Below, piece by piece: positions 11,929-56,928 of a stretch of DNA of 64,000 bases. Origin of the DNA: an uncultured Eubacteriales bacterium (GTDB taxonomy: Bacteria > Bacillota > Clostridia > Christensenellales > Aristaeellaceae); NCBI GenBank assembly GCA_902789795.1, contig CADAPM010000001.1:62001-126000 (forward strand), in the 5' to 3' direction. A program made the translations under genes and the position numbers. Each line of letters opens with the position of its first letter. Position 1 is the first letter of the stretch. Below the pieces are notes generated by a model. The model had not been told where the DNA came from and made no database searches. It was given only the letters and a program-made list of their open reading frames with translations.

Positions 11929-12037
11929 CCAAAAGGCGGGTCGGATGAGGCTGGAATCAAAAAAACCGCGCCACGCGCGGTTTTCTCCTGAACTCCTAAC
12001 TCCTCACTCCTAACTCCTAACTTGCGGCGAAGCCGCA
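11929..12037. repeat. Composite intergenic element: GGATGAGG remnant, hairpin, heptamer array, palindrome
   Basis: From left to right on the plus strand: GGCGGGTCGGATGAGG (11,935-11,950); an A-rich stretch; a 10-bp stem AAAACCGCGC, loop CAC (11,962-11,984) that on the minus strand ends in a T-run and looks like a Rho-independent terminator; a 7-bp-period array of TAACTCC/TCACTCC units (11,990-12,022); and a TTGCGGC-GAA-GCCGC palindrome that begins right after the gpW stop codon. The same order recurs at 12,321-12,437. Confidence 0.7.
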
Positions 12038-12286
12038 TTAGTCGCGCGGCACGACCACCTGCACGCGGGCGCTCCGCGCGCTGCCGTTCAGCTTCGCCAC
12101 CAGGCCGCTGAAATACTTGACCATCTTGTACACATACGGCAGATCCAGCGCCTCATACTCCCGTGTCCCGATGCGGTAGCGCTTCGCCTGCCCGTTGGCG
12201 ATTTCCCGGGCGCAGTCCTTCCACAGGCTCAATTGCTCCCGCGCCTCGGCCAGCGTAAACCCATCCACGATGTTGGGGATCGCCAT
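12038..12286 (-). CDS. Head-tail joining protein gpW
   Basis: An 82-aa protein (MAIPNIVDGFTLAEAREQLS...) with the gpW pattern: an 'EAREQLSLWKDCAREIANGQAKRYRIGTREYEALDLPYV' helix-turn-helix core and lambda-like gene order terminase-W-portal. gpW seals the portal after packaging and creates the tail-binding site. ATG 12286 follows AGAGGAGTGAGAG. The gene is isolated on both sides by homologous repeat blocks, unlike the tightly packed genes around it. Confidence 0.85.
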   Translation of the reverse strand: MAIPNIVDGFTLAEAREQLSLWKDCAREIANGQAKRYRIGTREYEALDLPYVYKMVKYFSGLVAKLNGSARSARVQVVVPRD

Positions 12287-12437
12287 TCTCTCACTCCTCT
12301 CAAAAAAGCCGTTCCAAAAGCCTTCCCCCATCTATGGGGGAAGGTGGCCGCCGTCAGGCGGTCGGATGAGGGTAAAATAAAAAGGAACCGCGTCAGCGAT
12401 TCCCTCCTGTACTCCTCACTCGCGGCGCAGCCGCTTT
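12287..12437. repeat. Composite intergenic element upstream of gpW (full copy)
   Basis: Plus strand: hairpin CCTTCCCCCA-TCTA-TGGGGGAAGG (12,321-12,344); hairpin CCGCC-GTCA-GGCGG; CGGATGAGGG (12,363-12,372); A-rich tract; hairpin GGAACCGC/GCGATTCC (12,384-12,403); short heptamer-type stretch CTCCTGTACTCCTCACT; palindrome GCGGC-GCA-GCCGC (12,422-12,434) ending three bases from the terminase stop codon. It is the better preserved sister of the block at 11,929-12,037. Confidence 0.7.
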
Positions 12438-14309
12438 TCAAACCGTGATTCCGTTGCTCACAACATGCTTGTGCTTCTTCTTCGCCGCCTCCGCTTTCGT
12501 GACCGGCTGGCTCTCGTACGTTCCGTTCAGCGTCGCTTCCACGCGGTTAAAGTTCCAGCGGAAATACCGGTACGCGGCCCGGGCATAGTTTCTGCAGTCC
12601 AGCGGCTCATTGCGCTCGTACACCTTTTCCCAGGCCGTCACCGCCTGCCCGCCGCGCCGGTGAATGACCATCCTCTCGGAGATCAGCCCCTTGAAAAACT
12701 CCATGTCATACCCGCAGCGGTAGTCGTTCGGGAAGTGCATGTACCTTGGCCCGACCTCTGTCACGCCCGACGCGGACATGATGCTTTCCTTGCCCCCGTC
12801 TACGCCGATGATCAGGCGCGGGCTGCTGTACTTCCCGTTGTCTTTCTTCATCATGCGCACGTACTCTTTGCCTTCGCCGCCTTCGCCCTTGATGGGGAAT
12901 ATCCTGCGCCCGTTGCGGTAGCGGATAGCGCACTGCCGGTACACGTCCTGTGTAAAGTGGCCGCCGCTGTCCACAAACGTCGCGCCGATCCTGAGCGCCA
13001 TCCCGTTCTCCAGCCGCCATTCCCGGTCCAGCAGCGCGTCGATCTCGTCCCATACGCCCTTGCTGTCCGCGCGCCCGGGAATGATCCCGCGGCTGATGCC
13101 CCAGCTCTGCTCCTCGCGGTCCCAGCCCACCACCTCATACTCCAGGCGGTTGTCCTGGGTGTCCACGCCCATGGTCAGCACCAGCACGCCCTTAGGCACG
13201 TCCGCGTCGTAGCTCTCGCGCCGCGCGTACAGCTTTTCCGGCACGCCGCTGCGGTCGCGCACCTCCCACGTCTCGCCTAAGATCGTGTTCACGAACACTT
13301 TCAAAAGCTCCGGGTCGTTCTGCGCCTTGAGAAAACTGCGGCAGATGTCCTTCCAGTCAGACCACGGGCTCATGAACGCGTTCAGCCGGAAGGACCGCAC
13401 GCCCGCTTCTAACGCCTGCGGGTTTTTACTCACCCACTTGGCGGGGCTGCGCTTCACGTCGTACTCGCCGGTTTCCCGCTGGCAGGTGGGGCAGACCCAC
13501 CGCACGTTCCTGACGTGGTAGTTCTTCTCGCCGTTCTCGTCCTTGTACTCCTCTTTGTCGAAATGGATCTGCTCAAAGCGGATGTAGTGGTACTGCTGGC
13601 AGTGCGGGCATTGAGTATGCCACTCCTCCTGAGTGCCTGTCATATATGCACGCTCAATCTTGCTCGCCCCCTTGACGGTCGGTGTGCTGGTTTTTACGAT
13701 CTTCCGGTTATGCCGAAAGGTCTCAGTACGCCGCTCGGCCAGCTCCAGCGGGTCGCCCTCTGTCCCGGCGCTCGCTGGGAAGCGGTCGATCTCGTCCATG
13801 AACACGTACCGGACGGGCCTGCCCGCCAGCTCTGTCGGGCTGTTCGCGCCGGTAAAGGCCACGCTCCCGCCCGGAAACGTCTTCATGGTGATCGTGTTCC
13901 CGGCGTCCCGGCTTTTCGCGTCATACACCTTCCGCTGCAGCGCGGCGCACGCCCGGATCATGGGCGCCACGCGGCGCTTGGAAAAGTCCTCCGCGAATGC
14001 GTCCGTGGGCTGGATAAACAGCATCGGGCCGGGATCCACGTCAATGCCCCGGCCCATCATGTTGAGCTCTAATTCCGTCTTGCCAACCTGAGCGCTCGCC
14101 ATGATCACGATCTGCCAGACCCCGGGCTGCGTAAAGCTGTCCATGATCTCGCGCTGGTACGGCGCGCGGTCTGTTCGCCACCTTCCCGGCTCGCTGGAGC
14201 TTTCGGAAACCAGGATGCGGTTCTGGTCTGCCCAGTCAGACACGCTCTGCAAGATCGGCGGGCGCAGCATTTCAAGCGTATAACGCGCAAGGTCGTTCAG
14301 ACTTCCCAC
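12438..14309 (-). CDS. Terminase large subunit (lambda GpA family)
   Basis: A 623-aa packaging motor. Walker A is ASAQVGKT (71-78); Walker B is VFMDEID (169-175); 'GGSVAFTGANSPTELAGRPVRYV' between them is typical of GpA. Two CPHC/CPTC pairs (about 225-295) form a zinc-ribbon insert. The nuclease half contains LTMGVDTQDNRLEYEVVGW and FVDSGGHFT, matching the RNase H-like acidic positions. It cleaves concatemers and drives DNA into the prohead with ATP. Starts three bases after the small subunit stop. The C-terminus ends NGITV directly before a repeat palindrome. Confidence 0.95.
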   Translation of the reverse strand: MGSLNDLARYTLEMLRPPILQSVSDWADQNRILVSESSSEPGRWRTDRAPYQREIMDSFTQPGVWQIVIMASAQVGKTELELNMMGRGIDVDPGPMLFIQPTDAFAEDFSKRRVAPMIRACAALQRKVYDAKSRDAGNTITMKTFPGGSVAFTGANSPTELAGRPVRYVFMDEIDRFPASAGTEGDPLELAERRTETFRHNRKIVKTSTPTVKGASKIERAYMTGTQEEWHTQCPHCQQYHYIRFEQIHFDKEEYKDENGEKNYHVRNVRWVCPTCQRETGEYDVKRSPAKWVSKNPQALEAGVRSFRLNAFMSPWSDWKDICRSFLKAQNDPELLKVFVNTILGETWEVRDRSGVPEKLYARRESYDADVPKGVLVLTMGVDTQDNRLEYEVVGWDREEQSWGISRGIIPGRADSKGVWDEIDALLDREWRLENGMALRIGATFVDSGGHFTQDVYRQCAIRYRNGRRIFPIKGEGGEGKEYVRMMKKDNGKYSSPRLIIGVDGGKESIMSASGVTEVGPRYMHFPNDYRCGYDMEFFKGLISERMVIHRRGGQAVTAWEKVYERNEPLDCRNYARAAYRYFRWNFNRVEATLNGTYESQPVTKAEAAKKKHKHVVSNGITV

Positions 14310-14312
14310 ACG

Positions 14313-14843
14313 TTACGCCTCCTCGTCCTCCGCGCCTGCCTCGGCGTCCTCGCCTGCGTACTCGGGCAGCGGCGTTTCCGCCAGTCCGTTCAGCACGCGG
14401 CGTATTTCCGCATCAATGATGCTGTTGATGATCTCCACGCTCTGCAATCCCTGTACCATCGGCGCAATGGTGCTGGGCAGGTGGATCATCGCCTGCATGA
14501 TCGTGTTCGCAATGTTGCCCCACAGCTTTTTGACGTCCTGCACATCCACCAGCTGCCCGCGCATCTGGTCGACCTCAAGCTGCGTCTTCTGCATCTTGAC
14601 TTCCTCATGCCGCGCCTTGACCACATCAAAGTCCTCCGGCGCGTCGCTGTTCGCAGCCAGGTTATAGTCCACCCAGCGCTGCACAAACAGCGCCAGGTCG
14701 TACTTCCCATCCTCGCGCTCTACGAACAGCTTCTTCTCTGCGGGCAGGTTCCGGTCGATGTCGTACAGCCTGCGGTAGGTGTACCCGGCGATGTTCGCCA
14801 GCTCCTTCTTAGTCAGTCCGTCCGTAGTCCCATCACCTGCCAT
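14313..14843 (-). CDS. Terminase small subunit (Nu1-like)
   Basis: A 176-aa protein. Residues about 9-50 (LTKKELANIAGYTYRRLYDI) form a winged helix that would bind cos/pac DNA, followed by 'FDVVKARHEEVKMQKTQLEVDQMRGQLV', a helical region typical of Nu1-like subunits, and an acidic tail (EYAGEDAEAGAEDEEA). It pairs with the GpA-type large subunit directly downstream and overlaps the upstream gene by 11 bp. The head module begins here or one gene earlier. Confidence 0.85.
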   Translation of the reverse strand: MAGDGTTDGLTKKELANIAGYTYRRLYDIDRNLPAEKKLFVEREDGKYDLALFVQRWVDYNLAANSDAPEDFDVVKARHEEVKMQKTQLEVDQMRGQLVDVQDVKKLWGNIANTIMQAMIHLPSTIAPMVQGLQSVEIINSIIDAEIRRVLNGLAETPLPEYAGEDAEAGAEDEEA

Positions 14844-15456
14844 TGACGATCAGGGCCGTTACGCGCTGCTCAATGCGCTTGTGCAGGAAGCTGTCGATGT
14901 CCCTTTCCACGTCCTCGCGGCTGCGGTTCATGGGCATCTGCGGAATGGCGATGCCCTTCACCGACACGATGGGGAATCTCGCTTTTCCCTCCCTCGCAAA
15001 AGTCACCTTCCCCAGCTTGGACGGGATGTTTCTGAACGGCGGCATCCCGCCGTCGTCCATTTTCGCGGGCAGCTTGCTCTCCACGCCCTTCACGATCCGC
15101 GCCGTCACGCGGTATTTCTTGCGCGTGCTCTCCCAGCCCCGGGCCGATCCCTTCGCCGCGTAGTACCCGCCGATGGATTTCCTCGGCCCCCGGAGGGGGA
15201 TCACGCACCCGACGTTGCTGTTGCTCATTTGCATCTGCGGCTTCTGTACCGTGCTCGTGATGTCGCCCATCTTCGCCACATGGTACTTCTTCGGCAGGTC
15301 TTTGCGCAGGATCGTGCCGATATGCCGCCCGGTTTCCCTGAACACGCCGTACATCGCCTGGTTAAACTGCCTCGGCGTCATGTGCGTCTTCAGGAAGTTG
15401 ATCTCTCTCCTGGCTTCGCTGTCGTCGATCGTCAGTTCCATGATGCGCTGAGCCAT
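14833..15456 (-). CDS. Minor tail protein Z-like (GPZ/HK97 gp10-like) protein
   Basis: A 207-aa protein (MAQRIMELTIDDSEARREINFL...) with basic, tail-completion character and 'MPMNRSREDVERDIDSFLHKRIEQRV' near the C-terminus, recalling the prophage minor tail protein Z family. It is the first gene after the candidate late promoter and lies upstream of the terminase rather than in the tail module, which is unusual for a tail protein. AAGGAGG precedes ATG 15456. Family confidence is moderate. Confidence 0.6.
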   Translation of the reverse strand: MAQRIMELTIDDSEARREINFLKTHMTPRQFNQAMYGVFRETGRHIGTILRKDLPKKYHVAKMGDITSTVQKPQMQMSNSNVGCVIPLRGPRKSIGGYYAAKGSARGWESTRKKYRVTARIVKGVESKLPAKMDDGGMPPFRNIPSKLGKVTFAREGKARFPIVSVKGIAIPQMPMNRSREDVERDIDSFLHKRIEQRVTALIVNGR

Positions 15457-15485
15457 GCGCTATAGACCTCCTTTCGCCGGAAATG

Positions 15486-15512
15486 AAAAAACCGGCGATT
15501 TCTCGCCGGTTC
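15486..15512 (-). terminator. Rho-independent terminator-like hairpin in the late leader
   Basis: Stem ACCGGCGA/TCGCCGGT with a 4-base loop followed on the minus strand by a run of T. It lies between the candidate late promoter and the first late gene, so it may be an attenuator or antitermination target. Confidence 0.7.
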
Positions 15513-15552
15513 CACAAAGGATGTTTTTCTCTCCACGTCTGCTGACGCTATC

Positions 15553-15621
15553 ATAATATCATGTCAATACCCCAAAAACAAGTGAAAAAAGGGAAATCTG
15601 ACGACCGCGAAAGGGAAATCT
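15553..15621 (-). promoter_or_regulatory. Candidate phage late promoter with tandem activator-like repeats
   Basis: Minus strand: -35-like TTGTTT (15,576-15,581), 17-bp spacer, -10 TATTAT (15,553-15,558). Upstream are two direct repeats AGATTTCCCTTT at 15,588-15,599 and 15,610-15,621, start-to-start 22 bp, the nearer one adjoining the weak -35. This is the layout of an activated promoter, and the ArpU-like regulator gene is the next gene upstream. The distal repeat also forms half of a terminator hairpin with TTTCCCTTT. Confidence 0.5.
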
Positions 15622-15635
15622 TTTTCCCTTTTTTC
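15610..15635 (-). terminator. Terminator after the late regulator gene
   Basis: AAAGGGAAA/TTTCCCTTT stem flanked by A- and T-tracts, 2 bp after the stop codon at 15,637; it could work in either direction. Confidence 0.6.
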
Positions 15636-15636
15636 A

Positions 15637-16119
15637 TTACGTTTTGTACTGAAAACGCTCACGCCACTTGACATGCGCCATGTCCTGCGCTTGTTCTATG
15701 CTCTCCCGCGCCCGCTCAAAGGCGTATTCCGTCATGTCCAGTTCCCGCATGACCTTTGATTTGGTAATATTGTCCACATAAAACATCTGCACAAAGGTCC
15801 GCATCGTCCGGCTCTCGATCCCGTTCAGGATCCGCTCTGCGGTCTTCAGCTCATGCACATACCGCTGCAGCGCTTCCCCGTAGTCGTGGTTCATCTCGTC
15901 CAGCTCGGCAATGGCCGCGTCCAGTCCGCTGGGCAGCCCGCCGCCTCCCGGCATCCCCTTGAGTCGCTTCGTCACGCTGTACAGCCGTTCGTTCTGCCAC
16001 TCGCTCCGGTTTTCCAGGCTCACGATCTCCTGCATCGTGTAGTAGATCTGTGTCAGCAGCGGGATGTCCCGGTTCGTGACATAGCGCTCCGCCTCCCGGA
16101 TCGTCTCGTTCTCGTGCAT
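15637..16119 (-). CDS. ArpU/RinA-like phage late transcription regulator
   Basis: A 160-aa helical protein. The C-terminal third (about 108-150) reads 'IESRTMRTFVQMFYVDNITKSKVMRELDMTEYAFERARESIEQ', a sigma-region-4-like helix-turn-helix as in the ArpU/DUF1492 regulators that switch on late genes in Gram-positive phages. Being the last early gene and adjacent to the candidate late promoter supports this. The N-terminal part is coiled-coil-like (EIVSLENRSEWQNERLYSVTKRL). Upstream are two small HTH genes. Confidence 0.72.
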   Translation of the reverse strand: MHENETIREAERYVTNRDIPLLTQIYYTMQEIVSLENRSEWQNERLYSVTKRLKGMPGGGGLPSGLDAAIAELDEMNHDYGEALQRYVHELKTAERILNGIESRTMRTFVQMFYVDNITKSKVMRELDMTEYAFERARESIEQAQDMAHVKWRERFQYKT

Positions 16120-16157
16120 TGCTCCCCTCCAAAACCGCGAACGTTTTCGCTTTTCGA

Positions 16158-16367
16158 TTACACCTTTTCCTGAAACAGCGGGATCAGCTCAATGTGCAGC
16201 GCTTCCAGCACCGCGTTCAGCGCGGTCAGGTTCGGTGTCGTTCTCCCCTCCACCCAATTCCGGTACGTCTTCTGGGCCAGCCCAGCGCGGCAGCATAGCT
16301 CGTTCACGGTGATCCCCTGGTGCTCGCGCACATCGTCTAAGTCAGTCATGAGGCCGTTAATGTTCAT
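16158..16367 (-). CDS. Small HTH (Xre-type) transcription regulator
   Basis: 69 aa: MNINGLMTDLDDVREHQGIT, then a classic HTH_3 core (VNELCCRAGLAQKTYRNWVEG, TTPNLTALNAVLEAL). It is mostly DNA-binding domain with no effector domain. It overlaps the upstream HTH gene by 11 bp and is clearly similar to it (TSPTLDSLKTVLGAMGLEL versus TTPNLTALNAVLEALHIEL), so the pair came from duplication. Probably regulates early or late phage genes; target unknown. Confidence 0.8.
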   Translation of the reverse strand: MNINGLMTDLDDVREHQGITVNELCCRAGLAQKTYRNWVEGRTTPNLTALNAVLEALHIELIPLFQEKV

Positions 16368-16635
16368 GCGGTTGCCGTTGTCCTTTCGTTTTCTTTACGC
16401 TCAGCTCCAGCCCCATCGCGCCCAGCACCGTCTTCAGGCTGTCCAGCGTCGGGGACGTCTTCCCCTCCATCCAATGGTAGTAGGATGAGGTCGTGATGTG
16501 CGCCTTCTCGCACAGCTCCGGCACACTCATGCAGATGCCGCGCCGGTACCTGTCGATGATCTTTAGTATCGGCTCTTCCGGCTCAAACACGATCCACATC
16601 CGCTTCCTTTTCTTTGCCCCTTCCGTTGTCCGCAT
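16357..16635 (-). CDS. HTH (Xre-type) regulator, paralogue of the next gene
   Basis: 92 aa. A basic N-terminal extension (about 1-22) precedes an Xre HTH: 'ILKIIDRYRRGICMSVPELCEKAHITTSSYYHWMEGKTSPTLDSLKTVL'. The two tandem HTH proteins might bind as alternatives at the same operator. It lies 20 bp after the preceding early gene. Start chosen at ATG 16635; ATG at about 16,599 would leave the HTH intact. Confidence 0.78.
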   Translation of the reverse strand: MRTTEGAKKRKRMWIVFEPEEPILKIIDRYRRGICMSVPELCEKAHITTSSYYHWMEGKTSPTLDSLKTVLGAMGLELSVKKTKGQRQPHEH

Positions 16636-16655
16636 CGTCCTTCTCCCGTTCCCGT

Positions 16656-17278: not shown

Positions 17279-17480
17279 GTTCTTCTCCATCCTGGCGTTC
17301 GTCTTCGGCAGCCTGTTCCTTCTCCGCGCATTCGTCACACAGGACGTAAGCCAATGGATCATCGCCTCTTTTAACGGAATGGATAACACAGATCCCACTA
17401 CGAATCGGCAAATACTTGGACTTTAACACCCCACCCAGCCGTTTTCTGCATTGATAGCAGATGATATCATACATCGCCAT
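17265..17480 (-). CDS. Small zinc-ribbon-like phage protein (71 aa)
   Basis: MAMYDIICYQCRKRLGGVLK and onward to an acidic tail. Two Cys pairs, CYQC (about 8-11) and CDEC (about 49-52), are spaced as in a treble-clef or zinc ribbon. Start ATG 17480 lies in the 3' end of the DUF551 gene (14-bp overlap) with a GGGAGG-type site. Function unknown; likely nucleic-acid or protein binding. Confidence 0.65.
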   Translation of the reverse strand: MAMYDIICYQCRKRLGGVLKSKYLPIRSGICVIHSVKRGDDPLAYVLCDECAEKEQAAEDERQDGEEHADL

Positions 17481-19165: not shown

Positions 19166-20035
19166 TTACTCTCCTGCATATCTCACTCCCGCGTCGTCGC
19201 GCTTTTCTCGGATCATCATGCGCAGCCTCTCGTTCGCGTCCTCCGGCGAGATCAGCCCAAACAGCTGCTTTCCTGCGGCGGCGTCGCGGTACATCAGGTA
19301 CTCGTCCACGTCGCTTTCCGTGTGCAGGTGGTAGCTCTGCCAGTCGCTCATCAGCTTCAGCACATAATCGTAGGGGCTTTCCGCGTTCTTCTTCGCGCTC
19401 ATGCGGATGGCCTTGGTCAGGACCCCCGGCGCAAAGCCGCAGTTGATCACCGCCGCCGTCGCCAGCTGATCAGCGATATAGTCCGTCAGCGTCTTCCCAT
19501 AGCAAAGCTTCCACGCGTTCTTCGCCTCCTCGCGCGCGCGGGTGATGTTGTCTTCGTCATCGTCTTCTTCTTGGTCTATATGTTTATTGTTAGTATAGTT
19601 TATTATATTGTTCGGTATGTTACCCCCTATGTTACCCCTGATGTTACCCCCTATGTTACCCCCTATGTTATCCGGAAATATCGTATTACATCCGTTATTA
19701 CAATCGGTTTCTGAGGGCACATACTCGGGGAAAAAGTATATCATCCGGTAGGCTGGGCTTTTCTGGTTCTTCTTTCCCGGCTCGTAGTCGATCAGCCCGC
19801 GCTGTTTCAGCCCGTTCCGCGCGGCCGCCATGGTGTCATATCGCATTGCGCAATAGCTGAGCAGTAGGTCATTGTTGATGCGGATGAACTCATCGGGCCA
19901 TACGTTGCCCTGGGCGCGCTGGTTCATAATGTGCATCAGCGCGTACCACAGCAGGCGCTCGTTGGCAGGGATATGTTCATCAGACGCATACTGAATAAAC
20001 CTCGTATGCTCCCTGACGTAATTGACGATAGGCAC
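19166..20035 (-). CDS. Phage replication initiation protein (DnaD-like)
   Basis: 289 aa. The N-terminal ~100 residues form a winged helix (ERLLWYALMHIMNQRAQGNVWPDEFIRINNDLLLSYCAMRYDTMAAARNGLKQRGLI pattern, here split by me), followed by a low-complexity linker containing repeated NIGG units and an acidic DQEEDDDEDN stretch, then a DnaD C-terminal-type domain (WKLCYGKTLTDYIADQLA, YVLKLMSDW). Such proteins load the helicase at the phage origin. Start is GTG 20035. The repeated NIGG residues are encoded by 12-bp iterons that may be the origin itself. Confidence 0.8.
   Translation of the reverse strand: MPIVNYVREHTRFIQYASDEHIPANERLLWYALMHIMNQRAQGNVWPDEFIRINNDLLLSYCAMRYDTMAAARNGLKQRGLIDYEPGKKNQKSPAYRMIYFFPEYVPSETDCNNGCNTIFPDNIGGNIGGNIRGNIGGNIPNNIINYTNNKHIDQEEDDDEDNITRAREEAKNAWKLCYGKTLTDYIADQLATAAVINCGFAPGVLTKAIRMSAKKNAESPYDYVLKLMSDWQSYHLHTESDVDEYLMYRDAAAGKQLFGLISPEDANERLRMMIREKRDDAGVRYAGE
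19574..19675. other. Candidate phage replication origin: five 12-bp iterons plus AT-rich stretch
   Basis: Plus strand: five contiguous copies of TATGTTACCCCC (19,616-19,675; copies 1 and 4 identical, copy 2 ends T, copy 3 starts G, copy 5 ends TCCGG). They adjoin an AT-rich segment of about 38 bp (19,574-19,612). Placement inside the initiator gene is as in lambda O. The repeats keep the reading frame, encoding four-residue NIGG units. Confidence 0.55.
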
Positions 20036-20488: not shown

Positions 20489-20981
20489 GCGCCCTCGCCT
20501 CCTTTACGATGTCGCGCACCGTCAGCGCGTTGCTCCACATCCCCACCTGGTCGAGCGCCACGCTGTACTCATGCTTGGGGATCTCCGCCAGCGCGGCGAT
20601 GCCGTACCTTGCCAGCACGGCGCGCCGGATCGCGTTGCCCAGCTTGTTCACGGCCTTCTTATCGTCCGCGCACTCGTACTTTTCCAGCAGCGCCCTCGCC
20701 CGCTCGCGGATGGCGTCGTTGATGTACCCGACCTGCTTTCTGCTCACCGGCGTATATAGCCGGATCTGCTTCTCCAAGGCTTCCAGCCGGTCGTTCTGCA
20801 CCGCCTGGGCGGATGATAGCTGCTCCAGCGCGGCGGTGTTGTTCTCCAGCAGCTTGCTCATGGTCGTGATGACCGGCCTCATGATCTCGGTAATGTACAC
20901 GCCCAGCAGCTTCGGAGTGATGGCTCCCTGCTCAGGCAGCATTAACTCCTCACTCCTGCTTCCTAACTCCTCACTCATCAT
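20451..20981 (-). CDS. ORF6C-domain phage protein
   Basis: 176 aa. The C-terminal ~90 residues match the ORF6C domain found at the end of phage antirepressor-type proteins: SRKQVGYINDAIRERARALL, then 'AVNKLGNAIRRAVLARYGIAALAEIPKHEYSVAL'. No BRO/Ant N-terminal domain is present; residues about 5-16 (EELGSRSEEL) are encoded by a heptamer array of the dispersed type. ATGATGAG overlaps the upstream gene's TGA. If the array is an insertion, the original start may be MLPEQG a few codons on. Confidence 0.78.
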   Translation of the reverse strand: MMSEELGSRSEELMLPEQGAITPKLLGVYITEIMRPVITTMSKLLENNTAALEQLSSAQAVQNDRLEALEKQIRLYTPVSRKQVGYINDAIRERARALLEKYECADDKKAVNKLGNAIRRAVLARYGIAALAEIPKHEYSVALDQVGMWSNALTVRDIVKEARARETESQHSGEGA

Positions 20982-21883
20982 ACGACTCTCCCGTCTGCCA
21001 TCGTGGCCTCTATCGCCCTCCGGCTGTCGTTGGCCCAGGCCTCCACGGTTTCCAATAGCTCGCTGTACTGCATCTTCTCCTTGAAGTCCATGGCGGCAAA
21101 GGTCAGGCGCATATGCGGCATCCGCGCGCACGCGCCGATAAACTGCCTCACGGCCCCGGCGAAGGCGTCCACCGTCAGCTGGTCCGTGGGCACGCGCTCG
21201 GCGTCTCCACGGGCGATCTCGCTCTTGGCGTCCAACAGATCCCGCTGCGCTTTGTCCAGGTCCTCCTGCATGTCCTTGATCAGGCCGCTCTGCTCGTCAT
21301 ACTCCCGGCTCAGCGCGGCATAGTCCGCCCGCAGCTTTCGCGCCTCGTCCAGCGTGTCGCGCTGCTGCTCGGCGATCCGGGTCAGCTCCTCCCGCTGCTG
21401 CGCGATCTGCAGGTCTTTTTCCTTCATGCTGTGGAAAACCGCCTCCGGGATCTCCGGTTCCCGGCTCTCCAGCTCTTTGATTTTCTGCTGCCACTTCTCG
21501 CGCTCCTGGCGCACGGCGGCATCGACTTCCCGGGCGGACATGCCCGCCACGTCGTTCTCCTGCACGAAGCGCTCCTCCTCGCCCTCCGGCAGCGCCAGCA
21601 TGCGTATCAGCTTGCTTTTCCCCAGCGCGGCAAAGCGGCTGCTTTCGCCGTACCGGGCGTATGCCTGCATGAATTGCTGTGCGTAGCGCTCGCTCATGCC
21701 GCTGTTCTCCTGTACCCAGGCGCTCCATTGCCCGTGCGCGACCAGCGGCTTCGCCTCGGTGAATACGTGCCCCAGCTGCAGCATGTTCATGGCGATGTTC
21801 TCAGACAGCATTTGTGCCTGCACCGCCAGCGTGTCAAGCACGCTCACGCTCCCATGGTTGGCGTTGGCTATCTCGTCGTTCAT
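20978..21883 (-). CDS. DUF3102-type phage protein
   Basis: 301 aa (start MNDEIANANHGSVSVLDTLA, ATG 21883). Residues about 25-120 carry the DUF3102 pattern: LQLGHVFTEAKPLVAHGQWSA, SERYAQQFMQAYARYG, 'ALGKSKLIRMLALPEGEEERFV'. A long central coiled coil follows (about 125-230, many QQ/RE/LR heptads), then a small alpha/beta end domain. DUF3102 resembles ParB-like helix-turn-helix proteins and is frequent in Firmicute phage and ICE early regions. It is translated in an overlapping chain with the DUF551 gene and the ORF6C gene. Confidence 0.78.
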   Translation of the reverse strand: MNDEIANANHGSVSVLDTLAVQAQMLSENIAMNMLQLGHVFTEAKPLVAHGQWSAWVQENSGMSERYAQQFMQAYARYGESSRFAALGKSKLIRMLALPEGEEERFVQENDVAGMSAREVDAAVRQEREKWQQKIKELESREPEIPEAVFHSMKEKDLQIAQQREELTRIAEQQRDTLDEARKLRADYAALSREYDEQSGLIKDMQEDLDKAQRDLLDAKSEIARGDAERVPTDQLTVDAFAGAVRQFIGACARMPHMRLTFAAMDFKEKMQYSELLETVEAWANDSRRAIEATMADGRVV

Positions 21884-22125
21884 TTCGTTTCCTCCTGCAT
21901 GTAGTGGATAAAAGGCAGCTCCGCCTTTTTCCTCAGTTCCTCGTGGTTCTTGGGCGGCCCGGGCGGCGGCTGCCAGTGCGTCAGGAAGCGGTTGTGCTCC
22001 ACCTGGTGGTAGCCGGTCACGATCACGCCGTTGTACACGTGCCAGAAGACCACGCACCCTGTCGGGTCGCTGTCCTCCTTGGTCGGCTTCCGCTCCTGGA
22101 TGCTGATCCAATCATCCCCGCTCAT
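21880..22125 (-). CDS. DUF551 protein (81 aa)
   Basis: MSGDDWISIQERKPTKEDSD and onward: WISI-ERKP, 'GCVVFWHVYNGVIVTGYHQVEHNRFLTHWQPPPGPP', the compact DUF551 form with the terminal HWxPxPxPP motif. Overlaps both neighbours (14 bp and 4 bp). It is the second DUF551 protein of the prophage and only distantly like the one at 17,467. Confidence 0.8.
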   Translation of the reverse strand: MSGDDWISIQERKPTKEDSDPTGCVVFWHVYNGVIVTGYHQVEHNRFLTHWQPPPGPPKNHEELRKKAELPFIHYMQEETK

Positions 22126-24435: not shown

Positions 24436-24873
24436 TCACACTTCCAAAATCTCAATTCCCCAGCACGCCTTCATCTGCTTTTTCTTGTTGATGTACACGC
24501 GGTTCTTCCTCGTCGCCTCGCTTTTTGCGTCGATCACCGCCTCGATGCTCATGTCCGGCCTGATCGTCACGAAGTCCGCGAAATACCGGATGCCTCCCGG
24601 CAGGTCGAACGGCACTTGCCTGATCACACAGCGCAGCTCCCCGGCCTTCACGCGCAGCATCAGCTCCTCGTACACGCGTGCCTCGTGCCGGCTGTCAAAC
24701 TTCAAGCCGTCCACTTCCACGCGCCTGTTTCCGTACTTCTGCCGCTTCGGCTTTTCCGCCCCCGGCCATGCCTCGGCCTCGTCCGCATAGCTCGCCCTCG
24801 CGCTCGCCCCCTGCAGCGGCCCGCGCCGCCCCATCAGCGCCTTGTACTCCTCCTCGGTCATCCTCAGTCCCAT
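24436..24873 (-). CDS. DUF1064 phage endonuclease-like protein
   Basis: 145 aa. DUF1064 signature: KYGNRRVEVDGLKFDSRHEA, EARVYEELMLRVKAGEL, VIRQVPFDLPGGIRYFADFV, 'AVIDAKSEATRKNRVYINKKKQMKA'. The D-(x)-E-x-K-like placement (FADF...DAKS) is that of a restriction-endonuclease-like/Hjc fold, so it may be a Holliday-junction or nick nuclease for phage recombination. ATG 24873 uses AGGAG supplied by a heptamer repeat array just upstream (24,879-24,910). Confidence 0.82.
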   Translation of the reverse strand: MGLRMTEEEYKALMGRRGPLQGASARASYADEAEAWPGAEKPKRQKYGNRRVEVDGLKFDSRHEARVYEELMLRVKAGELRCVIRQVPFDLPGGIRYFADFVTIRPDMSIEAVIDAKSEATRKNRVYINKKKQMKACWGIEILEV

Positions 24874-24878
24874 AATCA

Positions 24879-24912
24879 ACTCCTACTTCCTAACTCCTAA
24901 CTCCTCACTTGA
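24879..24912. repeat. Heptamer array (AACTCCT/ACTTCCT units)
   Basis: Plus strand: AACTCCTACTTCC, TAACTCC, TAACTCC, TCAC. On the minus strand it reads AGGAG-rich, supplies the stop TAG of the 24,897 gene and the ribosome site of the 24,436 gene. Confidence 0.7.
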
Positions 24913-25163
24913 GGAGCGACAGCTCCGAACAGTCCTCGCTTCTCGTCCGTCCTGGTATAGTGCTCATACCCCGGATAACCGCAGAAATGCAGCAGCCACG
25001 CCTTGCTGATCTTTAGCCGGTTCCCGCTGAAGAAATACTCCGCGTTCAGCGTCCCCTGCTTCGCGGCGACGTTCAGCGCATACCGGTCACAGCCCAGTAT
25101 CTCAGCCATCTCCTTCGATCCGACTGTCTCCTTCGGCCATGCCGCCAGCTCATCCAGCGTCAC
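24897..25163 (-). CDS. Excisionase-like HTH protein (88 aa)
   Basis: GTG 25163 after AGGAGG; reads MTLDELAAWPKETVGSKEMA, then EILGCDRYALNVAAKQGTLN and GNRLKISKAWLLHFCGYPG. This is a MerR/Xis-type winged helix (HTH_17). It may act as an excisionase or an early regulator. Its start region (RBS plus GTG-ACG-CTG-GAT-GAG) is nearly identical to that of the 25,385 gene. Its stop codon is provided by a heptamer array. Confidence 0.68.
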   Translation of the reverse strand: MTLDELAAWPKETVGSKEMAEILGCDRYALNVAAKQGTLNAEYFFSGNRLKISKAWLLHFCGYPGYEHYTRTDEKRGLFGAVAPQVRS

Positions 25164-25236
25164 GCTCCGCACCTCCTCTTGATAGATGACTTTTCCTTCC
25201 CCTCGTGGTATCATGTGCCAGAAAGGGGGTGATGAA

Positions 25237-35038: not shown

Positions 35039-35046
35039 ACACCTGT

Positions 35047-35129
35047 CCGCTGGGGGCGTCGCGACTGAAAAGTGCGGCTGAGATTGCACCCTTGGAACCT
35101 GTGTAGGTCATCCTACCGTAGGGAAGCGG
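35047..35129 (+). promoter_or_regulatory. TPP (THI-box) riboswitch aptamer
   Basis: P1 CCGCT/AGCGG. The conserved core is present: GGCTGAGATTGCACCC, TTGGAACCTG, and CCGTAGGGAAGC. The GUAGG-UCAUC-CUAC P4/P5 arm is intact. Followed by a terminator, so it represses thiT transcription when thiamine pyrophosphate is bound. Confidence 0.95.
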
Positions 35130-35152
35130 CGTGATCGGAAAGATCACCGTTT

Positions 35153-38277: not shown

Positions 38278-38742
38278 GTGACTGAAAGGCAAAAGTATCC
38301 AAAGCGGAAATCTCCGCGTCTGCAGGGGTTTGATTACTCGACAGCGCAATCGTATCATGTGGTGCTCGTAACACAGGACCGTGCGAAGGTTTTCGGCAGG
38401 GTCGTCGATTCGCGGATGCTTCTCAGCAAGGAGGGCAGGGCAGCGGCAGATCTGATCCTTGAGATTCCCAGGCATTATACCCGCGTTTCGGTGGACGAAT
38501 CTGTCGTTATGCCTGACCATGTGCATATATTGATCAGCATTTATGCCGATCCGGAAGAACCAGGTAATGCAAAACTGATGGATATTGTGCGGGCATACAA
38601 GTCTGCAGTCAGCCGACAGTGCGGCAGACCGATCTGGCAAAGGAGCTTTTATGATCATATCATCCGCAATGAGCAGGATTATCAGGAGACCATTTATTAT
38701 ATACAGGGAAATCCGGCAGAATGGACACTGACCCATGAATGA
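38278..38742 (+). CDS. REP-associated tyrosine transposase (RAYT, Y1 HUH)
   Basis: 154 aa from GTG 38278 (GAGGAA). HUH motif VVMPDHVHILI (about 76-86), catalytic Tyr in QRSFYDHIIRNEQDY (about 122), and 'YIQGNPAEW' near the C-terminus, all features of the Y1_Tnp/RAYT family. It begins GFDYSTAQSYHVVLVTQDR, the usual first strand. Flanked upstream by a REP doublet, the arrangement of domesticated RAYTs that mobilise REPINs. Complete and apparently functional. Confidence 0.92.
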   Translation: MTERQKYPKRKSPRLQGFDYSTAQSYHVVLVTQDRAKVFGRVVDSRMLLSKEGRAAADLILEIPRHYTRVSVDESVVMPDHVHILISIYADPEEPGNAKLMDIVRAYKSAVSRQCGRPIWQRSFYDHIIRNEQDYQETIYYIQGNPAEWTLTHE

Positions 38743-42969: not shown

Positions 42970-42972
42970 AAT

Positions 42973-43053
42973 TGTGAATTATGAATTAGGAATTATGAAT
43001 TGATGGTTCTGAAGTAACCCTAATTTCGCATTCTGAATTCCGAATTCCGCATT
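42973..43053. repeat. Heptamer-type inverted repeat block (GAATTA/GAATTC units)
   Basis: Left arm GAATTATGAATTAGGAATTATGAATT (given here in part: GAATTATGAATTAGG), right arm TTCTGAATTCCGAATTCC; 7-8 bp period, arms can pair. Begins 4 bp after the tldE stop. Confidence 0.6.
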
Positions 43054-51515: not shown

Positions 51516-51547
51516 GCATCCATACTTTGTAACGGGGAGACGGAAAA

Positions 51548-52492: not shown

Positions 52493-53481
52493 TGTCCCTC
52501 CTCAAGCACCCGAAATTGGAAACGCTCGAGCAGCACTGCACCGAAGCGCTCAAGGAAGACCAGCTGTTCACCTTTGCCCCCTTCAGCCAGCGCGAGGCGG
52601 AGGAGACGGGCGTCAGCAACTACAGCTACTGGCGCTCCACCTTCAGCGCGTTCAGGCGCAACAAGGTGGCCATGTTTCTGCTGATCCTGATGCTGTGCCT
52701 GCTTTTATTCACCTTTATCCAGCCGCTGCTGCCCGGCCAGTTCGACCCGAACCTGGTCTCCAATGACGCGCGCGGCCTGCCGCTGCGCAACAAGCAGCCC
52801 GACAGCGTGCACTGGATGGGCACCAACTCCATCGGCCAGGACCTGTGGGCCCGCATCTGGGCGGCCACGCGCAATTCGCTGTTCATCGGCATCAGCGTCG
52901 CTCTGATCGAGGCCTTTGTGGGCATCCTGGTGGGCGTGCTGTGGGGCTATGTGCGGCAATTGGATTTCATCCTGACGGAGATCTATAACGTCCTGGATAA
53001 TATCCCCACCACCATTGTGCTGATCCTGGTGGCCTTCATCCTGAAGCCGGGCATGGGCACCATCATCCTGGCCATGTCGGTGACGGGTTGGATCGGCATG
53101 GCGCGCTTTGTGCGTAATCAGGTGCTGGTGATCCGCGACCGCGACTATAACGTGGCCTCCCGCTGCCTGGGCACGAGCACCTGGCGCATCATCGGCCGCA
53201 ACCTGCTGCCCTACCTGGTCAGCGTGATCATGCTGCGCATGGCGCTTTCCATCCCCGGGGCCATCGGTTCCGAGGTGTTCATCACCTACATCGGCCTGGG
53301 CCTGCCGCCCCAGATCTGCTCCCTGGGCAACCTGATCAACGAGGGCCGCAAGCTGATGATGAGCCCCAGCCTGCGCTACCAGCTCATCTACCCGACGATC
53401 ATCCTGTCCGTGGTCACGGTCTCGTTTTATATGGTCGGCAACGCCTTTTCCGACGCGGCGGACCCCAAGAATCATCTGTAA
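52492..53481 (+). CDS. ABC importer permease (OppC-like)
   Basis: 329 aa. Cytoplasmic N-terminal ~55 residues, then six membrane helices with 'HWMGTNSIGQDLWARIWAATRNSLFIGISVALIEAFVGILVG' and the EAA-type loop 'RDYNVASRCLGTSTWRIIGRNLLPYLVSV'. Forms the heteromeric channel with the previous protein. ATG overlaps the previous stop. Lacks any fused ATPase. Confidence 0.94.
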   Translation: MSLLKHPKLETLEQHCTEALKEDQLFTFAPFSQREAEETGVSNYSYWRSTFSAFRRNKVAMFLLILMLCLLLFTFIQPLLPGQFDPNLVSNDARGLPLRNKQPDSVHWMGTNSIGQDLWARIWAATRNSLFIGISVALIEAFVGILVGVLWGYVRQLDFILTEIYNVLDNIPTTIVLILVAFILKPGMGTIILAMSVTGWIGMARFVRNQVLVIRDRDYNVASRCLGTSTWRIIGRNLLPYLVSVIMLRMALSIPGAIGSEVFITYIGLGLPPQICSLGNLINEGRKLMMSPSLRYQLIYPTIILSVVTVSFYMVGNAFSDAADPKNHL

Positions 53482-53498
53482 AGGAGGGAAAGCGCTGA

Positions 53499-54599
53499 AT
53501 GAATAGAACGATCCTGTCCGTACGCGGCCTGCATGTGTGCTTTTTCCTCCGCGGACGCACGCTGCACGCGCTGCGCGGCATCGATCTGGATGTATACGAG
53601 GGCGAATCCCTGGCCATCGTCGGGGAATCCGGTTCCGGCAAGAGCGTGCTCAACAAGAATTTCATCGGCCTCCTGGATCAGAACGGCCGCATCACCGAGG
53701 GCAGCATCCGCTATTACGGTATGTATGACAAAATGAAGCACAATCCCGCCGGCGGCACGGATGAAGAGGGCCGCCCCTACTGCGATCTTGCCAAGATCGC
53801 ACGCCGGGAGGACTGGCTGCGCATCCGCGGCAGCGAGATCTGCATGATCCCCCAGGATCCCATGACCAGCCTGAACCCGCTCAAGACCATCGGCTGGCAG
53901 ATATCCGAAGCGCTGATGCTGCACCACGGCATGAAGGGCCAGATGGCGAAGGACGAGACCCTGCACATTCTCGAAGAGGTGCGCATCGACCATCCGGAAA
54001 AGCGCTATCACCAGTACCCCCACGAGCTGTCCGGCGGCATGCGCCAGCGCATCGTGATCGCCATCGCCATCGCGTGCCAGCCCAAGATTTTGATCTGCGA
54101 CGAGCCCACCACCGCGCTGGATGTGACCATCCAGGCCCAGGTGCTGGAGCTGCTCAAGGAGCTCAAGTCCAAGTACAACCTGACCATCATCTTCATCACC
54201 CACGACCTGGGCGTGGTGGCGAGCATCGCGGACCGCGTGGCGGTCATGTACGCCGGCGATATCGTGGAGATCGGCATGGCGGAGGAGATCTTCTACGAGC
54301 CCCGCCACCCCTATACCTGGGCGCTTCTGTCCTCCCTGCCGCAGTTGGGGCAGCGCGGGGAAGAGCTGTACGCCATCAAGGGCACACCGCCCAACCTGTT
54401 TACCGAGATCCAGGGCGATGCTTTCGCCGCGCGCAACCCGCACGCCTTGAAGATCGACCACCTGGAGCAGCCGCCCTACTTTGATGTTTCGCCGACCCAC
54501 CGCGCCCGGACGTGGCTGCTGGATGAGCGCGCCCCGAAGGTAGAGCCGCCGCCGGCGCTCAAAAAACTGCGTACGCTGGGAGGTGCGGTCCATGACTGA
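53499..54599 (+). CDS. ABC importer ATPase (OppD-like)
   Basis: 366 aa. Walker A GESGSGKS (about 46), Q-loop '[13 protein letters not shown]', signature ELSGGMRQR, Walker B '[14 protein letters not shown]', H-loop '[10 protein letters not shown]', and the C-terminal oligopeptide-transporter region '[19 protein letters not shown]', normally with a Cys-rich iron-sulphur motif; here the cysteines are absent. Longer than the usual form by an insert about residues 75-105. Pairs with the OppF-like ATPase overlapping its 3' end. Confidence 0.94.
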
Positions 54600-55515
54600 T
54601 CATATCCTGGAAGTACGCGACCTGCACGTGACCTTCGGGCACGGCGCCAAACGCTTTGAAGCGGTGCGCGGCGTATCCTTTGACGTGAGAAGGGGAGAGA
54701 CCTTCGGCATCGTCGGCGAGTCCGGCTCGGGCAAGACCACCATCGGGCGCACGGTGATCCGTGTGAACCCGGCCACCTCCGGCTCCATCCGCTACGAGGG
54801 CGAGGAGATCACGGGCCGCATCAGCAAGGAGCTGGACCGGAAGATCATCAACAAGATCCAGATGATCTTCCAGGACCCCATGGCCTCCCTCAACGAGCGC
54901 GCCAAGATCAGCTATATCGTCAGCGAGGGCCTGCAGGGCCGCGGCATCCCCAAGCAGGAGATCGAGCAGCGCGTGACAGCCGCCCTGAACGAGGTGGGCC
55001 TGCTGCCGGAGTTTGCCAGCCGCTTCCCGCACGAGTTTTCGGGCGGCCAGCGCCAGCGCATCGGCATCGCCCGCGCGCTGGTGATGCAGCCGGAATTTAT
55101 CATCGCGGACGAGCCCATCTCCGCGCTGGATGTCTCCATCCGCGCCCAGGTGCTCAACCTGCTGTCCGAGCTGCAAAAAAAGCGTGGGCTGACCTATCTG
55201 TTCATCTCCCACGACCTTTCCGTCATGCGCTTCATCTGCGACCGCATCGCGGTGATCCACCTGGGGCGCATCGTGGAGCTGTGCGAGACGGAGGAGCTGT
55301 TCAGGCACCCGCTGCACCCCTACACGCGCGCCCTGCTGAGCGCCGTGCCGGTGCCCTCGCCCGACTACGCGCGGACCGCGAAGCCCCTCAGCTATGATCC
55401 TTCCATCCACGATTATTCGACCGACAAGCCCGCCTGGACCGAGATCGTCCCGGGGCACTTTGTGCTGGGGAATAATAAGGAATTGGATGGGTACAGGAAA
55501 CAGATGGAAAAGTGA
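54592..55515 (+). CDS. ABC importer ATPase (OppF-like)
   Basis: 307 aa from ATG 54592 (GGAGGTGCGG). Walker A GESGSGKTT, 'MIFQDPMASLNERAKI', signature EFSGGQRQR, Walker B 'FIIADEPISALDVS', 'LFISHDLSVMRFICDRI', and 'LHPYTRALLSAVPVPSPD'. Completes a five-gene importer: binding protein, two permeases, two ATPases. The stop is followed after 12 bp by a heptamer repeat block. Confidence 0.94.
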   Translation: MTDHILEVRDLHVTFGHGAKRFEAVRGVSFDVRRGETFGIVGESGSGKTTIGRTVIRVNPATSGSIRYEGEEITGRISKELDRKIINKIQMIFQDPMASLNERAKISYIVSEGLQGRGIPKQEIEQRVTAALNEVGLLPEFASRFPHEFSGGQRQRIGIARALVMQPEFIIADEPISALDVSIRAQVLNLLSELQKKRGLTYLFISHDLSVMRFICDRIAVIHLGRIVELCETEELFRHPLHPYTRALLSAVPVPSPDYARTAKPLSYDPSIHDYSTDKPAWTEIVPGHFVLGNNKELDGYRKQMEK

Positions 55516-55526
55516 TAGAAGAAAGA

Positions 55527-55642
55527 AAAAGTAGGAAGTAGGAAGGAGAAAGTAGGAAGTAATTCTACTTACTGAAGCGGCGCTGCTGAAGCCGCTTCAA
55601 AACACTGATTACTTCCTACTTCCTAACTCCTACTTCCTACTT
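55527..55642. repeat. Heptamer-array inverted element (GTAGGAA/TACTTCC units)
   Basis: Left arm GTAGGAAGTAGGAAGGAG and GTAGGAAGTAAT; core hairpin TGAAGCGGC/GCCGCTTCA; right arm ATTACTTCCTACTTCC, TAACTCC, TACTTCC, TACTTTT. The arms are complementary, so the whole can form one long stem-loop. Sits between the importer operon and alr. Confidence 0.75.
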
Positions 55643-55665
55643 TTGCAGAATAACAGGAGTAATGA

Positions 55666-56763
55666 ATGATCGACGCAAAGTTGTGTTCCCGCGCCTGGCT
55701 TGAGGTGGATCTCGAGGCGCTCAGGGCAAATTATCGGGAGGCGAAAAGCCTGCTGCGTCCCGGCGCGGAGATGATCTGCGTGCTCAAGGCGGATGCCTAC
55801 GGCTACGGCGCGAAGCAGGTCGGGCGGACCCTATATGAGGAAGGGGTGCGCTTTTTTGCAGTGGCGACGGTGCCGGAGGCGGAGGAGCTGCTCGGGGCGC
55901 TGCCGGAGGACGTCCGGGTGCTGTGCCTGGGCGAGCCGGCGGACTGCGAGCTGGAGACCTGCGTCCGCCTGGGCATCCGGGTGACGGTGGGCAGCGCGGA
56001 AAAGCTGGTAGCGCTCAGCCGCATTGGCCAGGCCCTCAGCCGTCCGGCCTATGTGCACCTGAAGCTGGATACGGGCCTGCACCGGCTCGGCTTCACCGAT
56101 GTCAGCGAGCTCCTGCCTGCCCTTAAGCAGGAGGGAATCATCTACGAGGGGCTGTACAGCCACCTGGCGCTGCGCAGCCGGGAGCAGTCCATCGCGCAGC
56201 ACGAGCTTTTCGAACAGCTGAAGGGACAATTGGAAGCGGCGGGCTGGCATTTCCCGATGGTGCACCTGCTGGACTCCATCGGCCTGGTGCGCTACCGGGA
56301 TTGGCAGTACGACGCGGTGCGCGTCGGCGCGTTCCTGTACGGCAACGTGCCGCCCGCCTACGAGCACTTTGAGCGCCGACAGGCCGTGGGCCGCTTCTGC
56401 GCCCGGGTGACCCGGGTCGCCCTGGTCCCGGCGGGGGAGGGCATTGGATATGACGAAGCGCCGCTCCCGCGGGATACGCGGGTGGCGACGCTTTCGGTGG
56501 GCTATGTGGATGGCTATGCCCGCTCCCTGTCCGGTGTGGGCGAGGTCGAGATCCATGGTAAGCGGGCCAAGGTGCTGGGCCTCATCTGCATGGACCAGAT
56601 GATGGTGGACGTGACGGACATCCCGGACGCCGCCGCCGGCGACACCGCCGTCCTCCTGGGTGACGGCATCACCCTCAACGAGCTGGCCGCCTGGGGACAC
56701 CTGAATCGGAATGGGATCACGGCGTGCATTGGGAAGAGGATACCAAGGATCTACATGAGTTAG
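55666..56763 (+). CDS. alr: Alanine racemase
   Basis: 365 aa. PLP-binding Lys in VLKADAYGYG (K41), substrate region 'YVHLKLDTGLHRLGF', second-base Tyr in SVGYVDGYAR (about 279), 'GLICMDQMMVDVT'. Interconverts L- and D-alanine for peptidoglycan. ATG 55666 follows ACAGGAGTA. The last codons ATG-AGT-TAG merge with the first heptamer of the next repeat block, so the stop codon is part of the repeat. Confidence 0.95.
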   Translation: MIDAKLCSRAWLEVDLEALRANYREAKSLLRPGAEMICVLKADAYGYGAKQVGRTLYEEGVRFFAVATVPEAEELLGALPEDVRVLCLGEPADCELETCVRLGIRVTVGSAEKLVALSRIGQALSRPAYVHLKLDTGLHRLGFTDVSELLPALKQEGIIYEGLYSHLALRSREQSIAQHELFEQLKGQLEAAGWHFPMVHLLDSIGLVRYRDWQYDAVRVGAFLYGNVPPAYEHFERRQAVGRFCARVTRVALVPAGEGIGYDEAPLPRDTRVATLSVGYVDGYARSLSGVGEVEIHGKRAKVLGLICMDQMMVDVTDIPDAAAGDTAVLLGDGITLNELAAWGHLNRNGITACIGKRIPRIYMS

Positions 56764-56928
56764 GAGTGAGGAATGAGGAGTGAGGAGTTGCGGTAGAAAC
56801 TGCGCGAGGCGCAGTTTCATTGATCATCGCGCGAAGCGCCGCAACGATCGAAGAATACTCCGCAGCGGAGCGGACGAGTTTCTTCCACAATTCCTAATTC
56901 CTAACTCCTAACTCCTAATTCCTAATTG
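56757..56928. repeat. Heptamer-array inverted element (TTAGGAG/AACTCCT units)
   Basis: Left arm GTTAGGAGTGAGGAATGAGG (56,757 on), right arm AATTCC-TAATTCC-TAACTCC-TAACTCC (56,888-56,924). Core contains hairpins GAAACTGCGC-GAG-GCGCAGTTTC and CTCCGC-AGC-GGAG-type. Arms are complementary. It starts inside the alr stop codon. Confidence 0.75.

Follow-up and report, generated by a model that had tools for sequence, protein, structure and literature searches.

Tandem heptamer arrays at gene ends of an uncultured Eubacteriales bacterium and their linkage to S23p genes

The 64-kb window analysed here (positions 62,001 to 126,000 of contig CADAPM010000001.1; 59.6% GC) is a stretch of DNA from an uncultured Eubacteriales bacterium in which arrays of tandem heptamers lie at or close to the stop codons of prophage and chromosomal genes. 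A probable reading is that these arrays form the arms of mobile elements, a family of the S23p/intervening sequence (IVS) type with non-autonomous derivatives that lack the open reading frame (ORF) and are tolerated between genes as RNA hairpins. The full form would comprise an inverted tandem-heptamer array, an S23p gene (PF05635, encoding a four-helix-bundle protein) and a complementary array, whilst in the ORF-less copies, of which the genome would hold tens, a short hairpin core would take the place of the gene; the window would then hold ORF-less copies and prophage half-copies. The genome, here G000, is a 2.59-Mb draft in 64 contigs (a metagenome-assembled genome, MAG, 88% complete), and its nearest named relative, judged by Alr, is the goat-omasum Clostridia MAG RGIG2628 (L072, 84% identity). 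G006 and G054 are genomes of the same genus, G060 is a relative, and L numbers denote loci.

Heptamer arrays and their position at gene ends

The arrays described in an initial annotation of the window, made from the sequence alone, are present where it placed them. Perfect three-unit ARKDRDG arrays form six clusters in the window and none in 50 dinucleotide shuffles, and seven lag-7 arrays (at least 17/21) occur against none in 1 Mb of Markov sequence, the array at 20,948 not being among the seven. Genome-wide, one pattern gave 45 + 32 matches on the two strands against 0 + 0 for its reverse, and a second gave 45 + 49 against 5 + 7. A looser pattern gave 108 + 101 against 100 + 88, a control that is uninformative because, by inspection, the reversed pattern fits AGTAGGA arrays in another phase. 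A profile scan of 42 G000 stretches (396 kb, comprising the window and the surroundings of array matches, and chosen around genome pattern matches, with the loosest pattern represented by its first 100 places) found 79 array groups. This number is a lower bound, arrays at C4:189839, C4:241101 and C11:15832 (units AAGTGTG/AAGAGTG) lying outside the scanned stretches. As tandem 7-base units that are intergenic and multicopy, the arrays have the traits of short tandemly repeated repetitive (STRR) sequences; cyanobacterial STRR sequences are reportedly tandem heptamers, as Mazel is said to have described in 1990.

The arrays are long inverted repeats. A purine arm followed by a pyrimidine arm was found in 56 of the 79 groups and the reverse order in none (53 '+-', 12 '+', 10 '-', 2 '++-', 1 '+-+-', 1 '--' and 0 '-+'), the usual layout being purine arm, core and pyrimidine arm with a median length of 129 bp among the 53 '+-' elements. 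Two families can be told apart by eye. Family I has AAGTAGG arms ending in AAGTAAT/ATTACTT and a core of about 45 bp that forms a hairpin, and family II has AGTGAGG arms ending in GAGTTCAG or GAGTTGYG around several hairpins; a rough regular-expression split placed 26 of the 53 '+-' elements in family I, 13 in family II and 14 in neither. The initial annotation held that the arrays are oriented with the gene, purine-rich on the coding strand. For two-armed copies this pattern is mostly a consequence of the inverted-repeat shape, whilst for the 23 single-arm groups the claim stands, the purine strand agreeing with that of the closest gene end in 18 of the 19 with a called end within 60 bp (one of the other four is the window arm at 24,875, which overlaps the uncalled ORF 24897-25214).

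Placement relative to stop codons, which the annotation had singled out for checking, is non-random. With gene neighbourhoods taken from an ad hoc gene caller, the nearest called stop lay at a median of 8 bp from the 79 groups, within 10 bp in 44 and within 40 bp in 61, and inside the element in 23, whilst 7.35% of 2000 random intergenic points fell within 10 bp of a stop. The groups lie between co-directional genes in 54 cases, convergent genes in 22 and divergent genes in 2, with 1 at an edge, against 79, 7 and 28 element-free gaps of at least 60 bp respectively, so that divergent sites are depleted (Fisher p 1.2e-5) and convergent sites in excess (Fisher p 5.2e-5). For the 54 tandem cases, median distances were 8 bp to the stop upstream and 77 bp to the start downstream, and in 48 of them the stop was the nearer of the two (Wilcoxon p 9e-6). 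Because 7 = 1 modulo 3, each of the six commonest units, when repeated without variation, closes all three purine-strand frames within three units, which accounts for the ease with which arrays supply a stop codon. In the window the distance from the stop is 0 bp at the TldE-like gene, 6 bp at the oppF-like gene, 15 bp at the gpW-like gene and 16 bp at the terminase, and the array contains the stop of alr and of ORF 20978-22111, the helix-turn-helix gene, in agreement with the annotation's statements that arrays sit at or near the stops of six window genes and make the stop in two of them.

Linkage to S23p genes

A run of three AGGA-type units was present in 7 of 60 family genomes, with 164 matches in G000 (reversed control 7) and, within the genus, 148 in G006 versus none in G054. 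Matches were found in 3 of the 15 genomes of Alr relatives (G063, 148; G060, 12; G067, 9), G063 appearing from its equal match count to be the same genome as G006. PF05635 was found over cut-off in 5 of the 7 array genomes versus 7 of the 53 others (Fisher p 0.0024, exploratory), and the S23p genes of array genomes sit inside heptamer-armed elements.

S23p loci were scored with a joint test of lag-7 identity of at least 16/21 on both sides and complementarity of at least 20/25 within 350 bp. The S23p idea and the thresholds were fixed after viewing the family and plasmid loci, and the phylum and viral sets were new to the test. The joint test was passed by 5/15 loci of the family set, 17/30 of the phylum set, 17/25 of the plasmid or phage set and 6/8 viral contigs, and complementarity alone by 6/15, 24/30, 23/25 and 8/8 respectively. 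These sets comprise 15 of the 16 over-cut-off family loci (L273, which is broken, lies at the end of a contig and shows no arms, was omitted), the top match from each of 30 genomes, drawn from the 57 that gave one when 299 were searched, 25 of 27 plasmid and phage records (two near-identical Planktothrix records stand outside) and 8 of 9 viral contigs (L367, an incomplete locus, was left out; L362 and L363 are near-identical). The joint test was passed by none of 53 Alr control loci (of 80; 1/53 by complementarity alone), none of 260 fixed-offset random windows and none of 85 genes carried by three plasmids of the set, among which complementarity alone was seen at 1 and a one-sided lag-7 array at 3; the 105 kb of these three S23p plasmids hold 1 lag-7 cluster. 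Within the family, complementarity of at least 20/25 was found at 6 of 7 S23p loci in array genomes versus 0 of 8 in others, three of the latter genomes' loci (L261, L263 and L265) having a lag-7 array on one side only. When periods 4 to 12 were tried, 7 apart, the both-sided test was passed only by 11, in 2/30 phylum loci; these are L323 (G089) and L326 (G169), where period-11 inverted arrays surround the S23p gene.

Both-sided heptamers with complementarity occur in Cyanobacteriota, Treponema (Spirochaetota) and Chlorohelix (Chloroflexota), and the two sides score 21 and 15 of 21 at lag 7 in Bernardetia (Bacteroidota) and 15 and 16 of 21 in Monoglobus (Bacillota). The heptamers of different taxa share nothing evident save their length (for example AATTCGC, GAAGTCG, ACCAGTG and ATTAGTG).

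G000 carries two full armed S23p copies, neither of them in the window. One, L270, starts with GTTGTGG and a hairpin and ends with a hairpin and CCACCTGAACT-TATCACTTATC; ORF-less G000 copies share its CCTGAACT junction and TTATCACTTATC arms, at eight array sites in the scanned stretches its CTTATCACTTATC arm stands beside ACCTGAACT, ACCGCAACT or ACCACAACT, and L070 and L270 have an identical piece of 33 bases in common. Family II is therefore tied to an S23p element, whilst the tie of family I to S23p is one of arm likeness. In G006 the arm of the S23p copy L260 includes AGGTAGGAGGTAGGAAGTAGGA, which recurs among the other arrays of that genome (20 G006 pieces, picked for likeness to the L260 arm, were compared). 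A tblastn search for S23p relics in ORF-less cores, covering the scanned G000 stretches and 550 kb of G060, returned only the two intact G000 copies.

The S23p proteins studied here match the sequences of the solved structures 2rld and 2gsc (PDB), and the Xanthomonas S23p protein is a homopentamer of four-helix bundles (PMC4990558). PF05635 resembles Avd, the accessory protein of diversity-generating retroelements (DGRs), and homology of 4DWL and 2GSC has been suggested (PMC10053308, as far as the available part of that account goes); the likeness suggests that S23p may bind nucleic acid. An Avd-like reverse transcriptase acting in trans is unsupported in G000, which has no PF00078 match in its 88% complete MAG; in this it differs from DGRs, for whose template and variable repeats (TR/VR) no search was made.

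The closest known system is the IVS in the 23S rRNA of Coxiella burnetii, described as having an S23p ORF, complementary ends that form a long stem and tandem heptamers, at one end, in a stem cut by RNase III after transcription (PMC4990558, in the part available). The copies studied here differ in being intergenic, in tens of copies and mostly ORF-less, with arrays as both arms and with stems that are predicted; those of the window lie between protein genes and not in 23S rRNA, and are therefore not filed as 23S IVS. Among the literature matches listed, no title or abstract opening links S23p with paired heptamer arrays.

Two observations stand beside these. The right arm of the S23p element differs by one heptamer copy between the near-identical viral contigs L362 and L363. 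S23p genes also lie among defence genes at L276, L280, L284 and L293-L297, the neighbours including hsdS/hsdR, cas1/cas2, a DISARM-like helicase (from the annotation of near-identical records), a helicase/N-6 methylase and DUF1156/Swt1-HEPN.

Occupied and empty sites, and the origin of the arrays

Both flanks of 11 of the 79 groups were found in 550 kb of G060, and nine sites could be scored (#6 and #78, the alr end, could not). Seven of the nine carry an element with this architecture, whilst the remaining two are empty; the presence of such elements at 7/9 sites in a second MAG makes an assembly artefact, which the initial annotation had raised against itself, unlikely. Where G060 has an element, its two arms pair at 14-20 of 21, whilst their best match to the G000 element is 12-21 of 21. 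At #7, #21 and #77 that match is at most 13 of 21 whilst the arms still pair, so that the two arms have either changed in step or been replaced. Nesting was seen by eye: an AAGTAGG-type element lies within an AGTGCGG-type one at a G060 site, a G000 composite is built of arms of three types set concentrically, and nested copies occur several times in G006.

Further empty sites come from phages and Nostoc. None of 31 viral loci whose terminase is related bears a lag-7 array, and inspection by eye of 23 phage relatives showed in 20 of them a start codon no more than about 30 bp beyond the terminase stop, so that the insertion in the prophage looks recent. An armed S23p gene stands between cas1 and cas2 in Nostoc TCL26-01, whilst in Nostoc UHCC 0870 cas1 and cas2 are two bases apart, and in Nostoc ATCC 53789 an element interrupts a DNA methyltransferase gene whose counterpart in Nostoc C052 is intact and longer, with 328 bp of the C052 gene left unmatched. 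In three cases judged by eye, the two Nostoc sites and G060 site #39, the outermost unit resembles the target, with possible junction microhomology of CAATTCG (methyltransferase), GAAGTA (cas1/cas2) and TTTACT (#39). In L287, L289 and L290, compared with L373, the armed S23p element splits a Nostoc plasmid DNA cytosine methyltransferase gene whose fragments are annotated as ORFs. A search for exact empty sites of the viral contigs with four flank patterns matched only the contig itself. The initial annotation's suggestion of mobile elements targeting gene ends, for which it looked to empty sites in relatives, is supported by copy number, occupied and empty sites, nesting and a strong bias towards stop codons.

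How such elements spread we infer as follows. S23p would act in trans on the armed structure, in either its DNA or its RNA form, and the element would spread, with gene ends and older copies as its preferred points of entry. The transcribed arms would pair into a long stem to be cut out by RNase III as in the 23S rRNA IVS, so that an insertion between two ORFs of an operon would be tolerated, and the arrays would later vary in length and sequence with their arms remaining complementary. Spread with S23p in trans, together with tolerance through processing of the RNA stem, is the most likely course.

Several results weigh against an S23p-driven mobile family. Mobility is read from occupied and empty sites and was never observed, the comparisons cross species with inexact junctions, and target-site duplications were not found (2/53 flank pairs share at least 7 bp versus 1.8% of mismatched pairs). 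The array genomes G008 and G044, both incomplete MAGs, gave no S23p match, and reverse transcriptase (PF00078) gave no match in G000, G006, G012, G044, G054 and G060, though it did in G008, G016 and G051. The joint test was failed by 10/15 family, 13/30 phylum and 8/25 plasmid or phage loci, the plasmid locus L291 has complementary ends without heptamers, both phage records of the plasmid/phage set lack arms, and family I cores gave no clear S23p gene match by tblastn. In the window the folds of the element at 42,970 (z -1.0, no better than shuffles), the half-element at 11964-12022 (weak, z -1.3) and the terminase half-element (z -2.2) are little or no better than those of shuffles. S23p has no known function according to the available part of PMC4990558. 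We know of no catalytic activity of S23p.

A regulator offers another account, in which the arrays would be sites of a global DNA- or RNA-binding protein, perhaps S23p itself, kept near gene ends for regulation. The class 3 sites of Geobacter metallireducens, with five tandem heptanucleotides per site in eight strand-switching, multicopy pairs, have a similar layout and were interpreted as global-regulator sites, classes 1 and 2 having other repeats (octanucleotides in class 1) and variable spacing, and the available part of the account makes no link to S23p (PMC2700814); the continued occupation of 7/9 scored sites between G000 and G060 despite changed arm sequence would also fit. We think it unlikely, however, since the heptamer sequence varies freely among sites and phyla, which ill suits one sequence-specific regulator, since the arrays are patchy within a genus (G006 and G054), and since nesting and empty sites resemble insertion. 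A reading of the AGGA motifs as a CsrA sponge was considered as well. Slightly less likely than a regulator is that the arrays came first, as repeats born of slippage, and that the S23p gene is a passenger settling into them. The one-heptamer difference between L362 and L363 and the nested arrays speak for this view; yet two complementary arms are not a product of slippage, the arms at 3 of the 7 occupied sites differ strongly between species and still pair, and the three S23p plasmids have a single lag-7 cluster and no inverted arrays at the 85 other genes, 3 of which have a one-sided lag-7 array.

Ordinary miniature inverted-repeat transposable elements (MITEs) or repetitive extragenic palindromic (REP)-type elements, moved by a DDE or Y1 (IS200/RAYT) transposase, would account for the size, inverted repeats and copy number, and the window has one weak Y1_Tnp ORF (38278-38742). 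Like REP/REPIN sequences and MITEs the elements are short, palindromic, multicopy and intergenic (PMC3733652, PMC3116915 and PMC10969869, in the parts available), but mobilisation by RAYT/IS200 was rejected, Y1_Tnp occurring in 2/7 array versus 17/53 other genomes (p=1), there is no target duplication, and the ends are heptamer arrays variable in length and sequence. As to a possible autonomous partner, the S23p copy L270 shares ends with ORF-less copies but S23p is not a known transposase, and no search for DDE transposases was made. We regard this origin as improbable. Least credible of all is the initial annotation's alternative that the arrays act on ribosomes after termination, as a series of Shine-Dalgarno (SD) sequences that hold or recycle them. 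The purine strand is AGGAG-like in G000, and in L260 the arm ends in the SD-like AGGAGGTGAT directly before the S23p ORF, where the arm seems to serve locally as a ribosome site, but other taxa have non-SD heptamers in the same element and the arms of complete copies, the purine arm included, pair in predicted folds.

Reports of heptamer arrays from several phyla have so far stood apart, some describing regulator sites (PMC4679880, PMC2700814) and others G-quadruplex sequences (PMC4692102), and the linkage gives S23p and these arrays a common frame. The TAACTGA repeats of Beggiatoaceae, found also in Cyanobacteria and Bacteroidetes, are likewise tandem intergenic heptamers but consist of one fixed heptamer, stand for the most part directly before start codons in the BOGUAY genome and, unlike the paired arms here, include one indirect repeat among 169 direct sets there (PMC4679880, as far as available). 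It is a tentative and rather doubtful extension that S23p proteins drive pan-bacterial mobile elements for which no transposase, reverse transcriptase or recombinase is known and in which inverted arrays of period 7, free in sequence, mark the ends, that the arrays of Cyanobacteria, Beggiatoaceae, Geobacter and gut Clostridia are one phenomenon, and that 23S IVS are members that landed in rRNA. If S23p does make, bind or move the elements, theirs would be a transposition-like process without a known enzyme, and the elements would also be a source of RNA processing sites inside operons.

Elements of the window and other features

The window elements are listed in Table 1. The phage arrays are one-armed, as the initial annotation had it; of the chromosomal elements, for which it claimed complementary arms, two have them and the third, at 42,970, has a degenerate second arm. 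Complementary ends forming a predicted stem are found in the two complete elements and not in the half-elements or at 42,970. The RNA fold of the element at 55,522-55,642 is -64.6 kcal/mol (z -11.0) and that of the element at 56,758-56,927 is -87 kcal/mol (z -6.8), each matched by 0/200 shuffles. In G060 the site of the first is occupied by a different element, and the alr end of L072 bears a single arm. The arm of the half-element at 11964-12022 abuts CCTGAACT, the family II-like junction of L270 and the ORF-less copies. The array at 12,404 has two units only and falls under the profile-scan threshold.

Table 1. Heptamer-armed elements and half-elements of the window
Feature	Position	Strand	Description
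Prophage half-element after gpW-like gene	11964..12022	-	heptamer arm 11988-12022 and terminator-like hairpin CCGCGCCACGCGCGG
Prophage short half-element after terminase	12384..12434	-	hairpin, two heptamer units, GCGGCGCAGCCGC hairpin; fold z -2.2
Prophage single arm over stop codon of ORF 20978-22111(-)	20948..20982	-	
Prophage single arm	24875..24909	-	overlaps stop of ORF 24897-25214(-); immediately upstream of resolvase-like ORF 24436-24879(-)
Chromosomal element after TldE/PmbA-like gene	42970..43053	+	arm 42970-43004, degenerate second arm 43022-43053, then terminator-like hairpin
Complete family I element, gap between oppF-like gene and alr	55522..55642		44-bp core with a hairpin between a 42-bp arm and its 35-bp complementary arm
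Complete family II element at alr end	56758..56927		TAG stop from array; multi-hairpin core; terminator-like hairpin after

At Rfam gathering thresholds, a search of six sources found only a TPP riboswitch in the window (35042-35141) and a T-box in L054. The small Y1_Tnp ORF (PF01797, 32.9 bits, weak; + strand), which we take to be possibly RAYT-like, has an AAA ATPase gene on one side and pyruvate kinase on the other. Another dispersed repeat, also palindromic (CCTTCCCCCATNNATGGGGGAAGG ... GGATGAGGG), at 12319-12377 adjoins the terminase half-element and is also found within a heptamer-armed element elsewhere in the genome (L070, 13908-14280), and a 12-base tandem repeat, TATGTTACCCCC, is present in 4.6 copies at 19616-19670.

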